This document shows, piece after piece, positions 22,921-55,385 of a stretch of DNA of 64,000 nt (position 1 is the first letter of the stretch; the number at the start of each line of letters is the position of its first letter). The translations under genes were made by a program, and so were the position numbers. The notes under the pieces were generated by a model that worked only from the letters and a program-made list of their open reading frames with translations, made no database searches and was not told the DNA's origin. The stretch is from Adlercreutzia caecimuris B7 (GTDB lineage: Bacteria; Actinomycetota; Coriobacteriia; Coriobacteriales; Eggerthellaceae). Location: NCBI RefSeq assembly GCF_000403355.2, contig NZ_KE159646.1:1-64000 (forward strand), read 5' to 3'.

Positions 22921-23910
22921 CTACTTCGCGAGCGCCCGGGGAAGCACCGCGGGGTTCACGCAGGCCTCGGGGGTGCGGCCGAGCACCACGTCGATGGCGT
23001 TCTGCGTGCAGCGCTGCCGCAGCTCCACGGCCGATTCCTCCGACCAGTAGGCCGCGTGCGCGGTGAGCACCGTGTGCGGCGCGCGCATGATGGCCGCGTC
23101 GGCGGGCACGGGCTCGGTCTCGAACACGTCGATGCCCGCGCCCCAGAGCCTTCCCGCCTCAAGGGCCGCCGCCACGGCGTCGGTGTCGATGACGGCGCCG
23201 CGGGAGGTGTTCACCACGATGGCGCCTGGGCCCAGCAGGGCGACGTTGTCGGCGTTCAGCAGGTGGCGGGTCTCGGGGGTGAGCGCCGTGTGGAAACTGA
23301 CCACGTCGGCAGTGCGTAGGGCCTCGTCGAAGGCGAGGTGAGGAAAGCCCTCGGCCGTGAGGGTGCCCGGCTGGCCGTGACGGTCCCATACGACGACGGA
23401 GAAGCCGAGGGCGGCCGCCTTGACGGCTGTGGCCCGGCCGATGTTGCCGTAGCCCACCACGGCGAAGGTGCGGCCGCGCACCTGGCCCAAGGGCCGGCGG
23501 CGCGCGAAGTCCCACACGCCGGCGCGCATGTCGGCGTCGATCTCGTTGATGCGTCGCAGGCATGCCAGCGCGAGCGCGATGGCATGGTCGCTCACCACTT
23601 CGGTGCCGTAGGCCGGTACGTTGCACACGGCGATGCCGCCGGCTGTGGCCGCCTCCACGTCGATGTTGTCCACGCCGGTGCCGGTCTTGCTGATGACCCG
23701 GGCGGCCGGCAGGGCGGCGATCACCTCGGCCGTGAAGCGGCCGTAGGAGGTGATGATCCCGTCGGCACCGGCCGCATGGGCGATGATCTCGTCGGCGGTG
23801 CAGTGGCGGCCGTGGCTGAAGCTCGTGAACTCAATGCCCGCCGCCTCCACCATGGCCCGCTCAAAGTCGCAGTCGTCGAAATCGAAGTCCACCATCGCAA
23901 TGGTTGCCAT
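22921..23910 (-). CDS. D-2-hydroxyacid dehydrogenase (CtBP/phosphoglycerate dehydrogenase family)
   Basis: This is a 329-residue NAD-dependent 2-hydroxyacid dehydrogenase. The Rossmann motif is VVGYGNIGRA. The catalytic set is Arg in VVNTSRGAVIDTDAV, Glu in DVFETEPVP and His in LTAHAAYWSEES, the CtBP-like arrangement. ATG 23910 (MATIAMVDFDFDDCDF) has GGGAGGGG upstream; the frame extends upstream without family resemblance. Divergent from the SDR gene 195 bases away. Substrate not identifiable; glyoxylate/hydroxypyruvate or 2-keto acids from amino acids are possible. Confidence 0.85.
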   Translation of the reverse strand: MATIAMVDFDFDDCDFERAMVEAAGIEFTSFSHGRHCTADEIIAHAAGADGIITSYGRFTAEVIAALPAARVISKTGTGVDNIDVEAATAGGIAVCNVPAYGTEVVSDHAIALALACLRRINEIDADMRAGVWDFARRRPLGQVRGRTFAVVGYGNIGRATAVKAAALGFSVVVWDRHGQPGTLTAEGFPHLAFDEALRTADVVSFHTALTPETRHLLNADNVALLGPGAIVVNTSRGAVIDTDAVAAALEAGRLWGAGIDVFETEPVPADAAIMRAPHTVLTAHAAYWSEESAVELRQRCTQNAIDVVLGRTPEACVNPAVLPRALAK

Positions 23911-51032: not shown

Positions 51033-52064
51033 CTAGCCGCGTGCCGGGGTGATAGTGCCCTGGGCGTCGATGAAGAAGGCCTGCTCGATCTCGGGCCGGC
51101 GGCGGGCGAGGGCGAGCCCCCGTTCGAGTCCCAGGGCCAGAAGGGTGGTGGAGAAGCCCTCGGCGTCGATGGACTTCTCGCAGATGACGGTGACGCCGGC
51201 CACGTCGGTTTCGGCGGGCATGCCGGTGCGCGGGTCCAAGATATGATGGCAGAAGGTGCCGTCGGGCGCCGTGAAGCAGCGCTCGTAGATGCCGCTTGTC
51301 ACGGCCGAGCCGCGCGCGAGGGGCACGGCCCCGATGAGCTTCTCCGGCTCGGCGGGATTGCGCACGCCGACGTTCCAGGGCCGGCCGTTCGGCTTGGCGC
51401 CGCTCACGGCCACGTTGCCCCCGAGGTTCACGATGACGCCCGAAAGCCCGTAGCCCTCCATGGCTTCCACCAGTGCATCGGCGATCCACCCCTTGGCGAT
51501 GCCGCCCGCATCCACTGCCGCAGCCGGATCGCCGAGCTGCGCGAGGTAACGGCCGTCTTCCCGCCATAGCCTCAGCTGGCGCCAATCGACGTGCCGCACC
51601 GCCTCGGCCAAGGCGGTTGCGTCGGGCGCGGTGCCCTCGTGGAAGTCCCACAGGCGCACGGCCGGCCCCACGGTGATGTCGAAGGCGCCCTCGCTGGCCT
51701 CGCAGTAGGCCAGTGCGCGCGTGAGCAGATCGAAGGTGAGCGGGTCGATGGCCACGGGCGCCCCGCCGGCGCCGTTCACGCGAGCGATGTCGGAGTGGGG
51801 CAGCGTGCGGCTGAACAGCCGCTCGTAGGTGCGGCAGAGCGAGCGGACCTCCTCGAAGGCCGCCCGGCAGGCCGCGGCCTCGCCGTAAGCCTCGATGTCG
51901 ATGACGGTGTTGAAGGCGAGAAAGCGCACGCCGGCAGGCTTGCCGTCCGCCGCGTCGTGCCACTGCACGAAGGCCTCGTCGGGAATGGGGTCGCAGGCGC
52001 CTTCGCCCTCGGCGGCGCGTCCTTGCGGCGCGCCCTCCGTTATTTGTCCGCTGCTGGTTTCCAT
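51033..52064 (-). CDS. apbE: ApbE-family FAD:protein FMN transferase
   Basis: This enzyme attaches FMN to Thr of [S/T]GAT-type sites. Visible features: AFNTVIDIEAYG near the start, FDITVGPAVRLWDFHEG, VDAGGIAKGWIADALVEAM and FCHHILDPRTGMPAETDVAGVT. ATG 52064 gives 343 residues. A TATACT box ends 6 bases before this ATG, which would make the mRNA leaderless; an ATG at 52097 is the alternative. No signal peptide or lipobox is visible, unlike many ApbE proteins. Likely clients are the FMN-binding proteins at 46331 and 53436. Confidence 0.9.
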   Translation of the reverse strand: METSSGQITEGAPQGRAAEGEGACDPIPDEAFVQWHDAADGKPAGVRFLAFNTVIDIEAYGEAAACRAAFEEVRSLCRTYERLFSRTLPHSDIARVNGAGGAPVAIDPLTFDLLTRALAYCEASEGAFDITVGPAVRLWDFHEGTAPDATALAEAVRHVDWRQLRLWREDGRYLAQLGDPAAAVDAGGIAKGWIADALVEAMEGYGLSGVIVNLGGNVAVSGAKPNGRPWNVGVRNPAEPEKLIGAVPLARGSAVTSGIYERCFTAPDGTFCHHILDPRTGMPAETDVAGVTVICEKSIDAEGFSTTLLALGLERGLALARRRPEIEQAFFIDAQGTITPARG

Positions 52065-52132
52065 GGATCCAGTATAGCGCACATCCTGTAGTATCATGGG
52101 CGAACGCGAACAACGAAGAGAAAGGCGCTCAC

Positions 52133-52945
52133 GTGAAGGCTCTCATTCCCGCGGCGGGGCTTGGCACCCGCTTTCTGCCGGCCACCAAGGCCCAGCCTAA
52201 GGAGATGTTGCTGGTGGTGGATCGGCCGGCCATTCAGTATGTCGTGGAGGAGGGCCTGGCGTCGGCGGCCGACGAGGTGGTCATTGTCAACAGCCGCGAG
52301 AAGAAGGCCATCGAGGATCATTTCGCGCCGAACCCCGAGCTGGTGGCGCTTCTGCGCGAGCGCGGCAAGGACGCCTACGCCGACGCTGTGGAGGCGGTGG
52401 GCAGCTACCCGGTGAGCTACGTGTACCAGGAAGAGGCCCTGGGGCTGGGGCATGCGGTGCGCTGCGCGGCCGAGAAGACGGCTGGCGAGCCCTTCTACGT
52501 GCTGCTCGGCGACGTGCTCGTGCCCGACAACGGGATGCTGCCGGCCATGCAGGCGGTCTCCGACGCCCACGGCGGTGCGAGTGTCATCGCGGTCATGCCC
52601 GTGCCCGACGATGAGGTGAGCCGCTTCGGCGTCATCGCCGGCGCTCCCATCTCCGACGATGTGTGGAAGGTGGACGCGCTGGTGGAGAAGCCGGCGCTTG
52701 AGGACGCTCCCAGCAACCTGGCGGTGTTCGGGCGCTACCTGCTCTCGCCGCGCGTCATGGAGCTGCTGGCCGACGTCCAGCCCGGCGTGGGCGGCGAGAT
52801 CCAGCTGACCGATGCGCTCGACGCGGTGCTCGCCGAGGAGGAGATGTACGCGCTCATCGTGGACCCGGCCGACGGCTTCGACACTGGCACCGTGGAAAGC
52901 TGGCTCGAGACGAACAACATCTTATTCCAGCGCAAGAACGGTTAG
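52133..52945 (+). CDS. galU: UTP-glucose-1-phosphate uridylyltransferase
   Basis: Makes UDP-glucose for envelope sugars. The 270-residue protein carries the nucleotidyltransferase motif KALIPAAGLGTRFLPATKAQPKEM (residues 2-25), a VLLGDVLV metal-binding segment, a VEKP motif and a GGEIQLTDA C-terminal motif. GTG 52133 is preceded by GAAGAGAAAGG. A single gene with a strong terminator. Confidence 0.93.
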   Translation: MKALIPAAGLGTRFLPATKAQPKEMLLVVDRPAIQYVVEEGLASAADEVVIVNSREKKAIEDHFAPNPELVALLRERGKDAYADAVEAVGSYPVSYVYQEEALGLGHAVRCAAEKTAGEPFYVLLGDVLVPDNGMLPAMQAVSDAHGGASVIAVMPVPDDEVSRFGVIAGAPISDDVWKVDALVEKPALEDAPSNLAVFGRYLLSPRVMELLADVQPGVGGEIQLTDALDAVLAEEEMYALIVDPADGFDTGTVESWLETNNILFQRKNG

Positions 52946-52960
52946 GCGATCCGCTCGCTT

Positions 52961-53011
52961 CGGCCCCGCCCCCTCCGGCCGCACCGCGGTCGCGGGACGG
53001 GGCCGCTTTTT
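52961..53011 (+). terminator. Terminator of galU
   Basis: CGGCCCCG (52961-52968) pairs with CGGGGCCG (52998-53005), then CTTTTT. Confidence 0.8.
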
Positions 53012-53188
53012 CTGTTACGGCGGGCCTGGATGTAGGCTCGACAACATGTCAGCAACGATGCTGTTATAAGGAATTGTTGCTGCATTCCCGCTGATGGAAA
53101 TGCTTCTTATTTCTGAAGAATAGCTTAAAGATGACCCTTTGAATCCATAAGTTCCCCACCTTCACGTCATAGGGAATTCAAGGGTGGT

Positions 53189-53197
53189 TGGTATACT
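53189..53197 (+). promoter_or_regulatory. Extended -10 promoter (TGGTATACT) of the C-rich sRNA
   Basis: TG-G-TATACT at 53189-53197 predicts a start near 53204. Bases 53012-53188 upstream hold nothing that I recognise. Confidence 0.6.
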
Positions 53198-53203
53198 GAG
53201 TCC

Positions 53204-53332
53204 AGCAAGTGAGACAACCCCCTCCGATCACTTGCCTGCTTTGTCTCTGAAAAGCAGAACGCGGCTCTTGCGAGAGTCGCATCCCCCCTCCTTCTGGCCC
53301 GGCGGCCCCCTCCGCCGGGCCGCTTCTTTTTT
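53204..53332 (+). ncRNA. C-rich small RNA with CU-rich loops, 6C RNA-like
   Basis: The predicted transcript is about 129 nt. Hairpin 1: CAAGTGA (53206-53212) / TCACTTG (53228-53234) with ACCCCCTCC in the loop. Hairpin 2: CTGCTTT (53236-53242) / AAAGCAG (53251-53257). Hairpin 3: GCGGCTCT (53261-53268) / AGAGTCGC (53273-53280). A single-stranded CCCCCCTCCTT follows. The terminator is GGCCCGGCGG (53296-53305) / CCGCCGGGCC (53312-53321) with loop CCCCCT and a T-rich tail. C-runs in hairpin loops are the hallmark of actinobacterial 6C RNA. CCCTCC can pair with Shine-Dalgarno sequences, suggesting translational control. No ORF competes. Confidence 0.65.
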
Positions 53333-53435: not shown

Positions 53436-55385
53436 CTAAGCGCTGAACACTCCGGCGCCGCAGGCGTAGCCGAGGGCCATGGAGCTGACGCCCGACATGC
53501 CCACGGTCACCTCTCCGGCGGCGAACAAGCCCTCGATGGCCGTGCCGTCCTCGCGCAGGACCTGCGAGATCTCGTCGGTCACGACACCGCCTTCGGTGAT
53601 GTGCGCCGCCCAGGTACGCGGGCTCGCATAGAAGGGCGGGTTCTCGATAGGGCTGCGTTCCGTGAAAATCATGCGGCCGAAATCGGGATCCTCGCCGGCT
53701 CGCGCGATTTCGTTGTAGCGCTCCACGGTGGCCTTGAACGTGGCCGGATCGCAGCCCATCTGCTCGGCCAGTTCCTCCAGCGTGTCGGCGCGGTGCAGCT
53801 GCCCTTGGTCGAGCAGGCGCTGGATGGAGCGGCCGTAGTAGCTGTACTCGCCTTCCACGCGGCTGGTGTCCTTGTCGCTGATGAGGAACAGCACTTCGTC
53901 GGGCTGCTTCATCAGCGCCTCGGTCATGGTGTAGCGATCCAGCGTCTCGTCGACGAAGCGCTCTCCGTTCTTGTTCACGAGCAGGCAGTCGGTATCCTCG
54001 CCCACGGTGGTCTCGTCGCAACCGTTCTTCACGTCGGCGAAGGGGAACATCATCAGCGAATCCATGAGGGCCACTTCGGCGCCTTCCTCCAGGGCCAGCT
54101 TGATGCCGTCGCCATGGTGGCCGTAGACGTTGGTGGTGGGAAGCGGCGTGTTCTCGTCCCACGGCCAGATCGTGTTGTACTCGCGCAGCATGTCGGGATT
54201 GCCGGAAAAGCCGCCGGTGGCCAGCAGGGCGCCCCGCGAGGCGCGCACGTGGTAGGTGGTGCCGTCCTCGGCGACCGCCGTGAATCCGACCACGCGGTCG
54301 CCATCCTTCAGAAGGGCGGTGACGGGTGTGTTCAGCATGATCTCCACCGGATAGTCATTCTCGGCGATCTGCTTGTCGAAGAAGTTGAAGTAGCCCTGGC
54401 CGCAGAAGCCGTCGTCGGGGGCAGACCAATGGGGCCACGGATACCCCACGATGCCGATGCAGGGCTTCCAGGCGAAGCCGTTCTCGTCGAGGAAGGCGTC
54501 GAAGGCGGAGACGCATTGGGCGAAATCGAGGCTTCCGTAGTAGCCGTCAGCGCCGTAGAGCAGACACTCCTGCAGGGCCATGAGCTCCTCGCAATCGAAA
54601 AGCGTGGTGTCGCCGGAGGCCTGCCATGCCGCATAGCGCTCCTTGATCTTGGCCAGTTCCTCTGGCGGGATCTCGGCGGCGATGGGGTTGGCCAGATCGG
54701 CTTCTAGCTGGCGGGTGAGCTCGGGGGTCATGGGAACGCGCAGATCGGCGGGGGCGTTCACGTATTCCAGATAGCCGCCAGACACCAGGGCGTTGCCGCC
54801 GACGTTGCTGCCCTTCTCCAGCACGATGACCTTGCCCGCACCCGCTTGGGCCGCTCCTACGGCGGCGCCCATTCCCGCTGCGCCTGCGCCGGCGATGACG
54901 AAATCGCATTCCAGTTCCACCACGTCGGCGGAAAGCTCGGGCGCGCGGTAGTTCTTCTCCATGGCGCACACGTCGCCGCCGGCCTGCTTCACGCAATCGG
55001 TCACCGCGGCGAGGATGGCCGCGCTCGTGAGCGTGCAGCCGGTGATGGTGTCGATGCCCAGGGCCTGCTGGTCGATGATGGTGGCGGGAATCTCATCGAA
55101 GGCGCGATCGGACACGCGCTCCGTTTCCTCGTGCTCGCCGATGGCGATGTCGGTGATGGCGCTGTCGGTGAAGGTGGCCTGCAGGGTCAGCGGGCCGAAT
55201 TTGCCCTCGCCGGTGCCCGTGTAGGTGCCCGGCGTGAATGCGAGCGTGTCTGTGCCCGTTGCCGCGGCGGGGGTCTTAGGCGCGCAACCGGACAGGCCGA
55301 AGACGGCCAGGTTCACGCCGGCAAGCGTGGCGCCCGCCAGAAAGGTGCGGCGGCTCATACGGTGGTTCAGGTAGGCGTAGGTCAT
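53436..55385 (-). CDS. Tat-exported flavoprotein reductase with FMN-binding and FAD domains
   Basis: This 649-residue protein combines, in order, a twin-arginine lipoprotein-like signal (MSRRTFLAG, then LSGCAP), an FMN_bind domain at about residues 48-130 with flavinylation Thr118 in TITGCTLTS, and a fumarate-reductase-type FAD domain (FVIAGAGAAGMGAA, VSGGYLEYVNA, ATGGFSGN). It resembles urocanate and other enoate reductases that are electron acceptors for anaerobic respiration. It is divergent from a LuxR-type membrane regulator, the standard arrangement for these reductases in this bacterial group. Substrate unknown. Confidence 0.9.
   Translation of the reverse strand: MTYAYLNHRMSRRTFLAGATLAGVNLAVFGLSGCAPKTPAAATGTDTLAFTPGTYTGTGEGKFGPLTLQATFTDSAITDIAIGEHEETERVSDRAFDEIPATIIDQQALGIDTITGCTLTSAAILAAVTDCVKQAGGDVCAMEKNYRAPELSADVVELECDFVIAGAGAAGMGAAVGAAQAGAGKVIVLEKGSNVGGNALVSGGYLEYVNAPADLRVPMTPELTRQLEADLANPIAAEIPPEELAKIKERYAAWQASGDTTLFDCEELMALQECLLYGADGYYGSLDFAQCVSAFDAFLDENGFAWKPCIGIVGYPWPHWSAPDDGFCGQGYFNFFDKQIAENDYPVEIMLNTPVTALLKDGDRVVGFTAVAEDGTTYHVRASRGALLATGGFSGNPDMLREYNTIWPWDENTPLPTTNVYGHHGDGIKLALEEGAEVALMDSLMMFPFADVKNGCDETTVGEDTDCLLVNKNGERFVDETLDRYTMTEALMKQPDEVLFLISDKDTSRVEGEYSYYGRSIQRLLDQGQLHRADTLEELAEQMGCDPATFKATVERYNEIARAGEDPDFGRMIFTERSPIENPPFYASPRTWAAHITEGGVVTDEISQVLREDGTAIEGLFAAGEVTVGMSGVSSMALGYACGAGVFSA

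Follow-up and report, generated by a model that had tools for sequence, protein, structure and literature searches.

A predicted C-rich small RNA gene with four hairpins, next to galU in Adlercreutzia caecimuris, represents an apparently uncatalogued RNA family of Eggerthellaceae

We analysed a stretch of 64,000 nucleotides from Adlercreutzia caecimuris B7 (positions 1 to 64,000 of contig NZ_KE159646.1, the window), in which a small RNA gene is predicted between galU and a convergent reductase gene. The features of the locus, in window coordinates, are given below with the basis of each assignment.

52133 to 52945, plus strand: galU, upstream neighbour of the RNA gene (TIGR01099, 273.7 bits, below the cut-off of 326.8)
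53144 to 53187, plus strand: putative operator of four half-sites (CA at 53146, 53157, 53168 and 53179) repeated every 11 bp, just ahead of the -10 and in place of a -35 (comparison of 63 copies)
53189 to 53190, plus strand: TG of an extended -10 (sequence)
53192 to 53197, plus strand: -10 hexamer TATACT (sequence)
53204 to 53332, plus strand: small RNA gene with a predicted transcript of ~129 nt (model match 53203 to 53330; fold z -4.5; start and end putative)
53205 to 53235, plus strand: hairpin 1, with CCCCCUCC (53218 to 53225) in the loop (predicted fold; two-sided changes at 5/5 pairs of helix 1)
53236 to 53257, plus strand: hairpin 2, CUGCUUU/AAAGCAG (predicted fold; two-sided changes at 7/7 pairs of helix 2)
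53261 to 53280, plus strand: hairpin 3, the stem most variable in sequence (predicted fold; two-sided changes at 7/7 pairs of helix 3)
53281 to 53295, plus strand: single-stranded linker AUCCCCCCUCCUUCU, whose core is anti-Shine-Dalgarno-like (unpaired in most of the folds shown)
53296 to 53332, plus strand: intrinsic terminator hairpin with the C-rich loop CCCCCU (53306 to 53311) and a U tract (two-sided changes at 11/11 pairs of helices 4 and 5)
53436 to 55385, minus strand: flavocytochrome c / FAD-binding reductase with an FMN-binding domain, convergent downstream neighbour (profile matches)

The prediction of a stand-alone RNA gene at 53204 to 53332 is well supported. The predicted gene has four hairpins, with the terminator as the final one, and its probable +1, read from the sequence, is A53204. 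The original prediction had described an extended -10, hairpins, a linker and a terminator here, and each of these elements is present where it was placed. The fold energy of 53189 to 53332 is -57.9 kcal/mol; 200 dinucleotide shuffles gave -39.9 +/- 4.0 kcal/mol (z -4.5), and none of them (0/200) folded as well. Three CU-rich segments (53218 to 53225, 53283 to 53293, and 53306 to 53313) had been called exposed. The predicted fold leaves them unpaired, apart from the two C at the end of the third segment, which pair within the terminator stem. The sole run of six C in the window copy lies in the linker, the loop runs being CCCCC interrupted by U. The region had also been said to hold no open reading frame. 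In a mechanical listing, frames cross it on both strands (e.g., a 507-codon GTG frame from 53184), so the claim stands only in that these frames do not represent a conserved gene, since related copies differ by insertions and deletions that are not multiples of three.

Sequence comparison gives good support for the RNA being one copy of a large, apparently uncatalogued family that is widely conserved in Eggerthellaceae. By BLAST, the RNA was found in 17/60 genomes (host counted), all of them Eggerthellaceae and including all 9 Adlercreutzia genomes. R1, a covariance model based on four copies in three genera other than the host's, matched 98/138 Eggerthellaceae genomes, representing 35/48 genera; 53 of the 98 carried at least two copies, with a maximum of four (manual count). 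A second model, built from 64 rows (R2), matched 95/297 genomes of the order, 74 of them Eggerthellaceae and 21 from other families (manual count), the latter comprising 17 in family f5 and one each in families f2, f7, f8 and f9. Out-of-family R2 matches whose E value is about 1e-4 or weaker should be taken as uncertain. We inspected 14 weak or out-of-family matches, including 12 from these 21 genomes; CCCUCCUU was present in 13 of the 14 and CCCCUCCUU in 9. In a sample of the phylum, 8/296 genomes matched the RNA model, every one of them Eggerthellaceae. The host itself has a second copy (C1:2173312-2173440; L129:3013-3141), which lies beside a homocysteine S-methyltransferase-like gene. Clustered or tandem copies, up to four per genome, were seen in several genera (L014, at 1164-1296, 1426-1558 and 1884-2017; L018; L130-L132; L134).

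The copies that we compared are a subset of all matches, picked for diversity from the BLAST and covariance-model results. The alignment (A5) has 64 rows, 63 of them distinct, and the covariation analysis used all 64. Copy counts of 63 leave out one incomplete row (L141:533-601) and hold one place twice (L013 and L137), giving 62 distinct copies. Because the first MAFFT alignments misplaced hairpin 2, we used a four-sequence seed followed by model-based realignment. Whether the stems are kept by compensatory change had been proposed as a check on the gene, and the outcome was favorable: two-sided changes occurred in 30/30 modelled pairs, 97.2% of the cells pair, and the covariation score was 0.485, against 0.134 for shuffled and 0.035 to 0.068 for slid partners, in an alignment whose fitting to the structure favors that structure. 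In an unfitted alignment, 7/16 predicted pairs had two-sided changes, and among the single-sequence folds shown, most copies formed the same hairpins. The slid controls, the unfitted alignment and most of these folds agree with the structure from the fitted alignment, which makes it a well-supported prediction. In the fitted alignment, G-U cells (42) outnumber A-C cells (20); both this excess and the U tract are as they should be for an RNA with the plus-strand sequence and thus support that strand.

The promoter region is conserved in a different way than expected. The TG of the extended -10, which the original prediction took as a mark of the gene, is not conserved among the copies; the conserved promoter trait is the four-half-site operator at about 53144 to 53187. 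When copies were anchored on their best -10 match, each position had the letters of TATAMT in at least 61/63 copies, and CA recurred every 11 bp exactly, at -46, -35, -24 and -13. All four half-sites were present in 44/63 copies and at least three in 56/63 (shuffled mean, 0.155), and at other phases from -5 to +5 they were found in 0/63 copies. A consensus scan found no sigma-70 -35/-10 pair at the RNA promoter. Tandem direct repeats with a period of 10 to 11 bp are the layout of OmpR/PhoP-type operators, and the assignment of the putative operator to this type is well supported by the comparison of copies. An 11-nt direct-repeat layout is general for OmpR-family sites. Seven of the 63 copies have two half-sites at most, the second copy of the host among them; its lack of the 11-bp operator suggests that the paralogues are controlled differently. 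A scan of ~16% of the host genome (464 kb) gave the window copy as the sole strong match (37.6; the next scored 14.1), which makes a large operator regulon unlikely.

In actinobacterial PhoP (PHO) boxes, 11-nt direct repeat units are described, sometimes four in a row (PMC7866108). A phosphate regulon under PhoP was considered as the source of the operator and is not supported, as no comparable box was present at the pst loci tested (27 loci in 17/26 genomes; 19/27 matches were below the pstS cut-off, many being two pieces of one gene). The best operator-box scores at these loci were 13.2, 10.7, 9.6 and 8.4, compared with a training median of 38.7. One pst locus (L188) had a three-half-site match, and the background is 3 such matches in 464 kb of the host.

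In the family alignment, the stems vary while the unpaired linker UCCCCUCCUU, which contains CCUCCUU, the 16S anti-Shine-Dalgarno (anti-SD) core, and the CCCCU loops barely change. The linker is unpaired in most of the predicted copy folds shown, with L148:309-436 as the exception (0.41). Over the predicted folds of the 63 copies, accessible CCCCU motifs numbered 2.89 per copy, compared with 0.43 in dinucleotide shuffles, and at least three were accessible in 46/63 copies versus 0/315 shuffles. By a looser C4 measure, 49/63 copies had three or four accessible clusters and 14/63 had one or two. Several unpaired C-rich motifs beyond chance, as in trans-acting C-rich (UCCC-type) RNAs, are therefore present in the predicted folds. 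In many relatives, CCCC(U) is present in the loop of hairpin 2; the window copy has no such motif there. Taken together, comparison of the copies supports the gene family, its predicted structure, the exposed motif and the putative operator.

Repeated CCCCU loops could also titrate or carry a C-rich-binding protein with no mRNA pairing. Several equivalent loop motifs on rigid stems would suit such a sponge, and the CUGCUU/AAGCAG of the hairpin 2 stem is retained in most alignment rows. The best conserved motif, however, is the single-stranded linker with its exact 16S core and not a loop, and we know of no C-rich-binding sponge of the CCCCU-loop kind in Actinomycetota. We therefore regard a protein-binding RNA as unlikely.

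The original prediction had likened the RNA to the actinobacterial 6C RNA, while allowing for a separate class, and had proposed a search with the Rfam 6C model. The 6C model (RF01066; gathering score of 47 bits) gave no match in the window, nothing around the gene at E values up to 10, nothing in the loci of 15 relatives at E values up to 1 and nothing in the host genome, in a search in which the Corynebacterium glutamicum control was detected but below the cut-off. At the Rfam 15 cut-offs, no family matched the RNA region of the window (whose one match is a tRNA) or the loci of the 15 relatives; the Rfam matches that did occur (suhB, Hrs10, atoC and anti-hemB, among others) all lay far under the cut-off and were rejected. 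Within the phylum sample, 6C was found in 21/296 genomes (12 over the cut-off), none of which was among the 8 genomes with the RNA family. 6C RNAs are defined by two hairpins whose loops have runs of about six C. Here, we found four hairpins and, in the window copy, loop runs broken by U.

A 6C member too divergent for the Rfam model would share the plan of a 5' hairpin plus a terminator with C-rich loops in the same phylum (as compared with one 6C locus), and the non-overlapping distribution would fit one RNA replacing the other. Given the lack of a match at any of the loci searched, the four hairpins instead of two, and the U-broken C runs, we find this quite unlikely. Membership in 6C thus fell away, and the alternative of a separate class held up. 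The titles and abstract openings listed in the literature searches contained no report of a trans-acting regulatory RNA in Coriobacteriia or of this RNA family. The main text of a study on structured RNAs in human microbiomes has the strings "Eggerthella" and "Coriobact" 0 times; one Collinsella candidate is described there as likely cis-acting, upstream of L7/L12, which is a different place from that of the RNA family (PMC8040213). With no Rfam family at threshold and no description among the papers listed, the RNA most likely represents a new family of the C-rich, ribosome-binding-site (RBS)-binding kind and not a member of 6C.

To what the linker may bind is suggested by its likeness to 16S rRNA, the 3'-end pattern of which occurs at three places in the host genome. 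The 3' part of 53/63 copies has CCCCUCCUU, and the 16S form, CACCUCCUU, occurs in 0/63; the linker thus has C at a position where 16S has A, which should favor GGAGGGG-type RBSs over the canonical GGAGGUG. In the host, predicted pairing with the linker was at -13 kcal/mol or lower for 58/335 RBSs, compared with 16/330 coding windows, and the corresponding counts in two further genomes were 65/311 versus 15/305 and 103/304 versus 22/300. AGGGG was found in 27/335 host RBSs and 11/990 coding windows. Gene calls for these counts were crude, and calling that used the SD to choose starts was set aside. When the host was compared with four other Adlercreutzia genomes, linker pairing was no better conserved than 16S pairing (correlation of 0.87 for both; 34 genes). 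Target conservation across Adlercreutzia was therefore dropped as an RNA-specific sign, as it is not separable from ordinary SD conservation, and the RBS pairing is largely as any anti-SD-like sequence would show.

The CCUCCUU shared with 16S would also fit a decoy anti-SD, that is, a general stress brake competing with 16S rRNA for all SDs. Such a brake is very unlikely, as the C that the family keeps in place of A should favor G-rich RBSs over GGAGGUG and the -13 kcal/mol level is attained by just 58 of the 335 RBSs in the host.

Among RBSs at -13 kcal/mol or lower, genes whose products have a hydrophobic stretch at the N terminus were enriched, with odds ratios of 2.43 in the host (p 0.004), 2.07 in one further genome (p 0.033) and 1.22 in another (p 0.49); three or four thresholds were looked at, and the p values are uncorrected. 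At -15 kcal/mol, the host odds ratio was 1.48 (p 0.31), and equally strong 16S pairing gave no such enrichment. The mRNAs of exported and membrane proteins are a tentative candidate target class. Candidate RBSs within the window are those of the genes at 22924 (minus strand), 36923, 30507 and 44888 (minus strand). Hfq was matched in 0/13 genomes (the host, 8 Adlercreutzia, and 4 from other families of the order) and in 5/14 controls, so any pairing between RNA and mRNA would have to be Hfq-free.

The position of the RNA relative to its neighbors varies. In loci from other genera (L011, L012, and L017), the RNA is on the strand opposite to galU, and both copies with no galU within 1.5-kb flanks and three copies in a row occur. 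Judged from sequence features, the -10, operator and terminator are conserved in the copies while the orientation to galU varies. Because this orientation differs between genera and three copies can stand in a row, the RNA is probably its own transcription unit. In several genera (L017, L119, L122, L123, L171, L176, and L177), the RNA lies between galU and a homocysteine S-methyltransferase-type gene (PF02574 in both proteins tested, from L123 and the host). In the host and G004, both Adlercreutzia, one copy adjoins galU and the other the homocysteine S-methyltransferase-type gene (L174, L175, L181, and L182). The order galU, RNA, homocysteine S-methyltransferase-type gene is perhaps that of the ancestral locus.

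An ApbE-type FMN transferase is found at 51033 to 52097 of the window and, with the reductase, flanks galU and the RNA. ApbE matches were present in the Adlercreutzia loci L003-L010, and the reductase had no match in L003-L018 (flanks of about 1.5 kb). After galU, at 52955 to 53012, there is a GC-rich sequence that looks like a terminator by eye, contains CCCCCTCC and was not listed by the consensus terminator scan. The CCCCCUCC stretch in this sequence is absent after galU in the 11 relatives inspected and was taken as a coincidence. In one Adlercreutzia species (L007), the RNA starts ~125 nt after the galU stop, with no terminator obvious by eye in between; the terminator of the RNA may therefore end galU too. 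Despite this gap, it is hardly credible that the RNA lacks a trans function and merely belongs to galU, as an attenuation or 3'-end element made up of a terminator plus additional hairpins, considering its own -10 and operator, the opposite strand in other genera, the copies away from galU and in tandem arrays, and loops that are conserved and not free to drift.

We think it probable that the RNA is a trans-acting, Hfq-free regulator whose gene is activated by a response regulator and which represses translation by pairing with G-rich RBSs. An OmpR/PhoP-type response regulator would bind the four half-sites spaced by 11 bp and bring RNA polymerase to a promoter that lacks a -35, leading to an RNA of ~129 nt that would end at its own terminator. 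The stable hairpins, to judge from the predicted folds and covariation, would keep several CCCCU(CC) stretches unpaired. These stretches could pair, without Hfq, with G-rich RBSs (e.g., AGGAGGGG, AGGGG, and GGAGG) and block 30S binding. With three or four equivalent sites per RNA and several copies per genome, the family could broadly repress a subset of mRNAs. The steps that we infer are that the gene is transcribed, that a response regulator activates it, that the RNA pairs with RBSs and that translation is repressed; RBS blocking is proposed by analogy with B11 (6C) and Staphylococcus aureus RsaA. A wider reading is possible but doubtful: a Coriobacteriales-wide, Hfq-free, multivalent RBS-blocking RNA hub with a dedicated two-component system, repeatedly duplicated and evolved apart from 6C, that would control the synthesis of envelope and respiratory proteins in species of the gut (such as those of Eggerthella and Adlercreutzia).

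Trans-acting regulatory RNAs seem little described in Coriobacteriia, a class that includes drug- and isoflavone-metabolising gut bacteria. The RNA family brings a ready covariance model for annotation, and the operator shared by its copies is a lead to the regulator. If the proposed mechanism is true, the RNA would be a further case of Hfq-free RBS control by C motifs.

Among known systems, 6C RNA is likewise a stand-alone RNA of Actinomycetota with C-rich loops in a 5' hairpin and a terminator hairpin. The RNA described here differs from it in having four hairpins, U-broken C runs and its main motif in a single-stranded linker, as well as in the lack of a model match, its occurrence in other lineages of the phylum sample and its OmpR/PhoP-type operator. 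6C is said, in the title of a 2019 paper by Mai et al., to be "independent of RNA chaperones." For B11 of Mycobacterium abscessus, a 6C member, repression by pairing of the C-rich loops with G-rich RBSs is described, with either loop being sufficient (PMC10470900), and additional 6C copies are described in some species (PMC9569102). In S. aureus, a C-rich motif of RsaA is described as masking the mgrA SD, and unpaired C-rich/UCCC motifs in several loops of RNAIII as serving as seeds against RBSs (PMC3961350). The present RNA is like RNAIII, RsaA and their relatives in its unpaired C-rich motifs, whereas it belongs to another phylum and matches no Rfam family at the cut-off. Its operator is like the PHO boxes of PhoP in its 11-nt direct repeats, the half-site sequence being likened by layout only, but is without a counterpart at the tested pst loci. 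The OmrA/OmrB-type envelope small RNAs are Hfq-dependent and use a different pairing region; with their duplicated genes and OmpR-family regulator, they resemble the present family in having duplicated small RNA genes under a regulator of that family, which for the RNA at 53204 to 53332 is putative.
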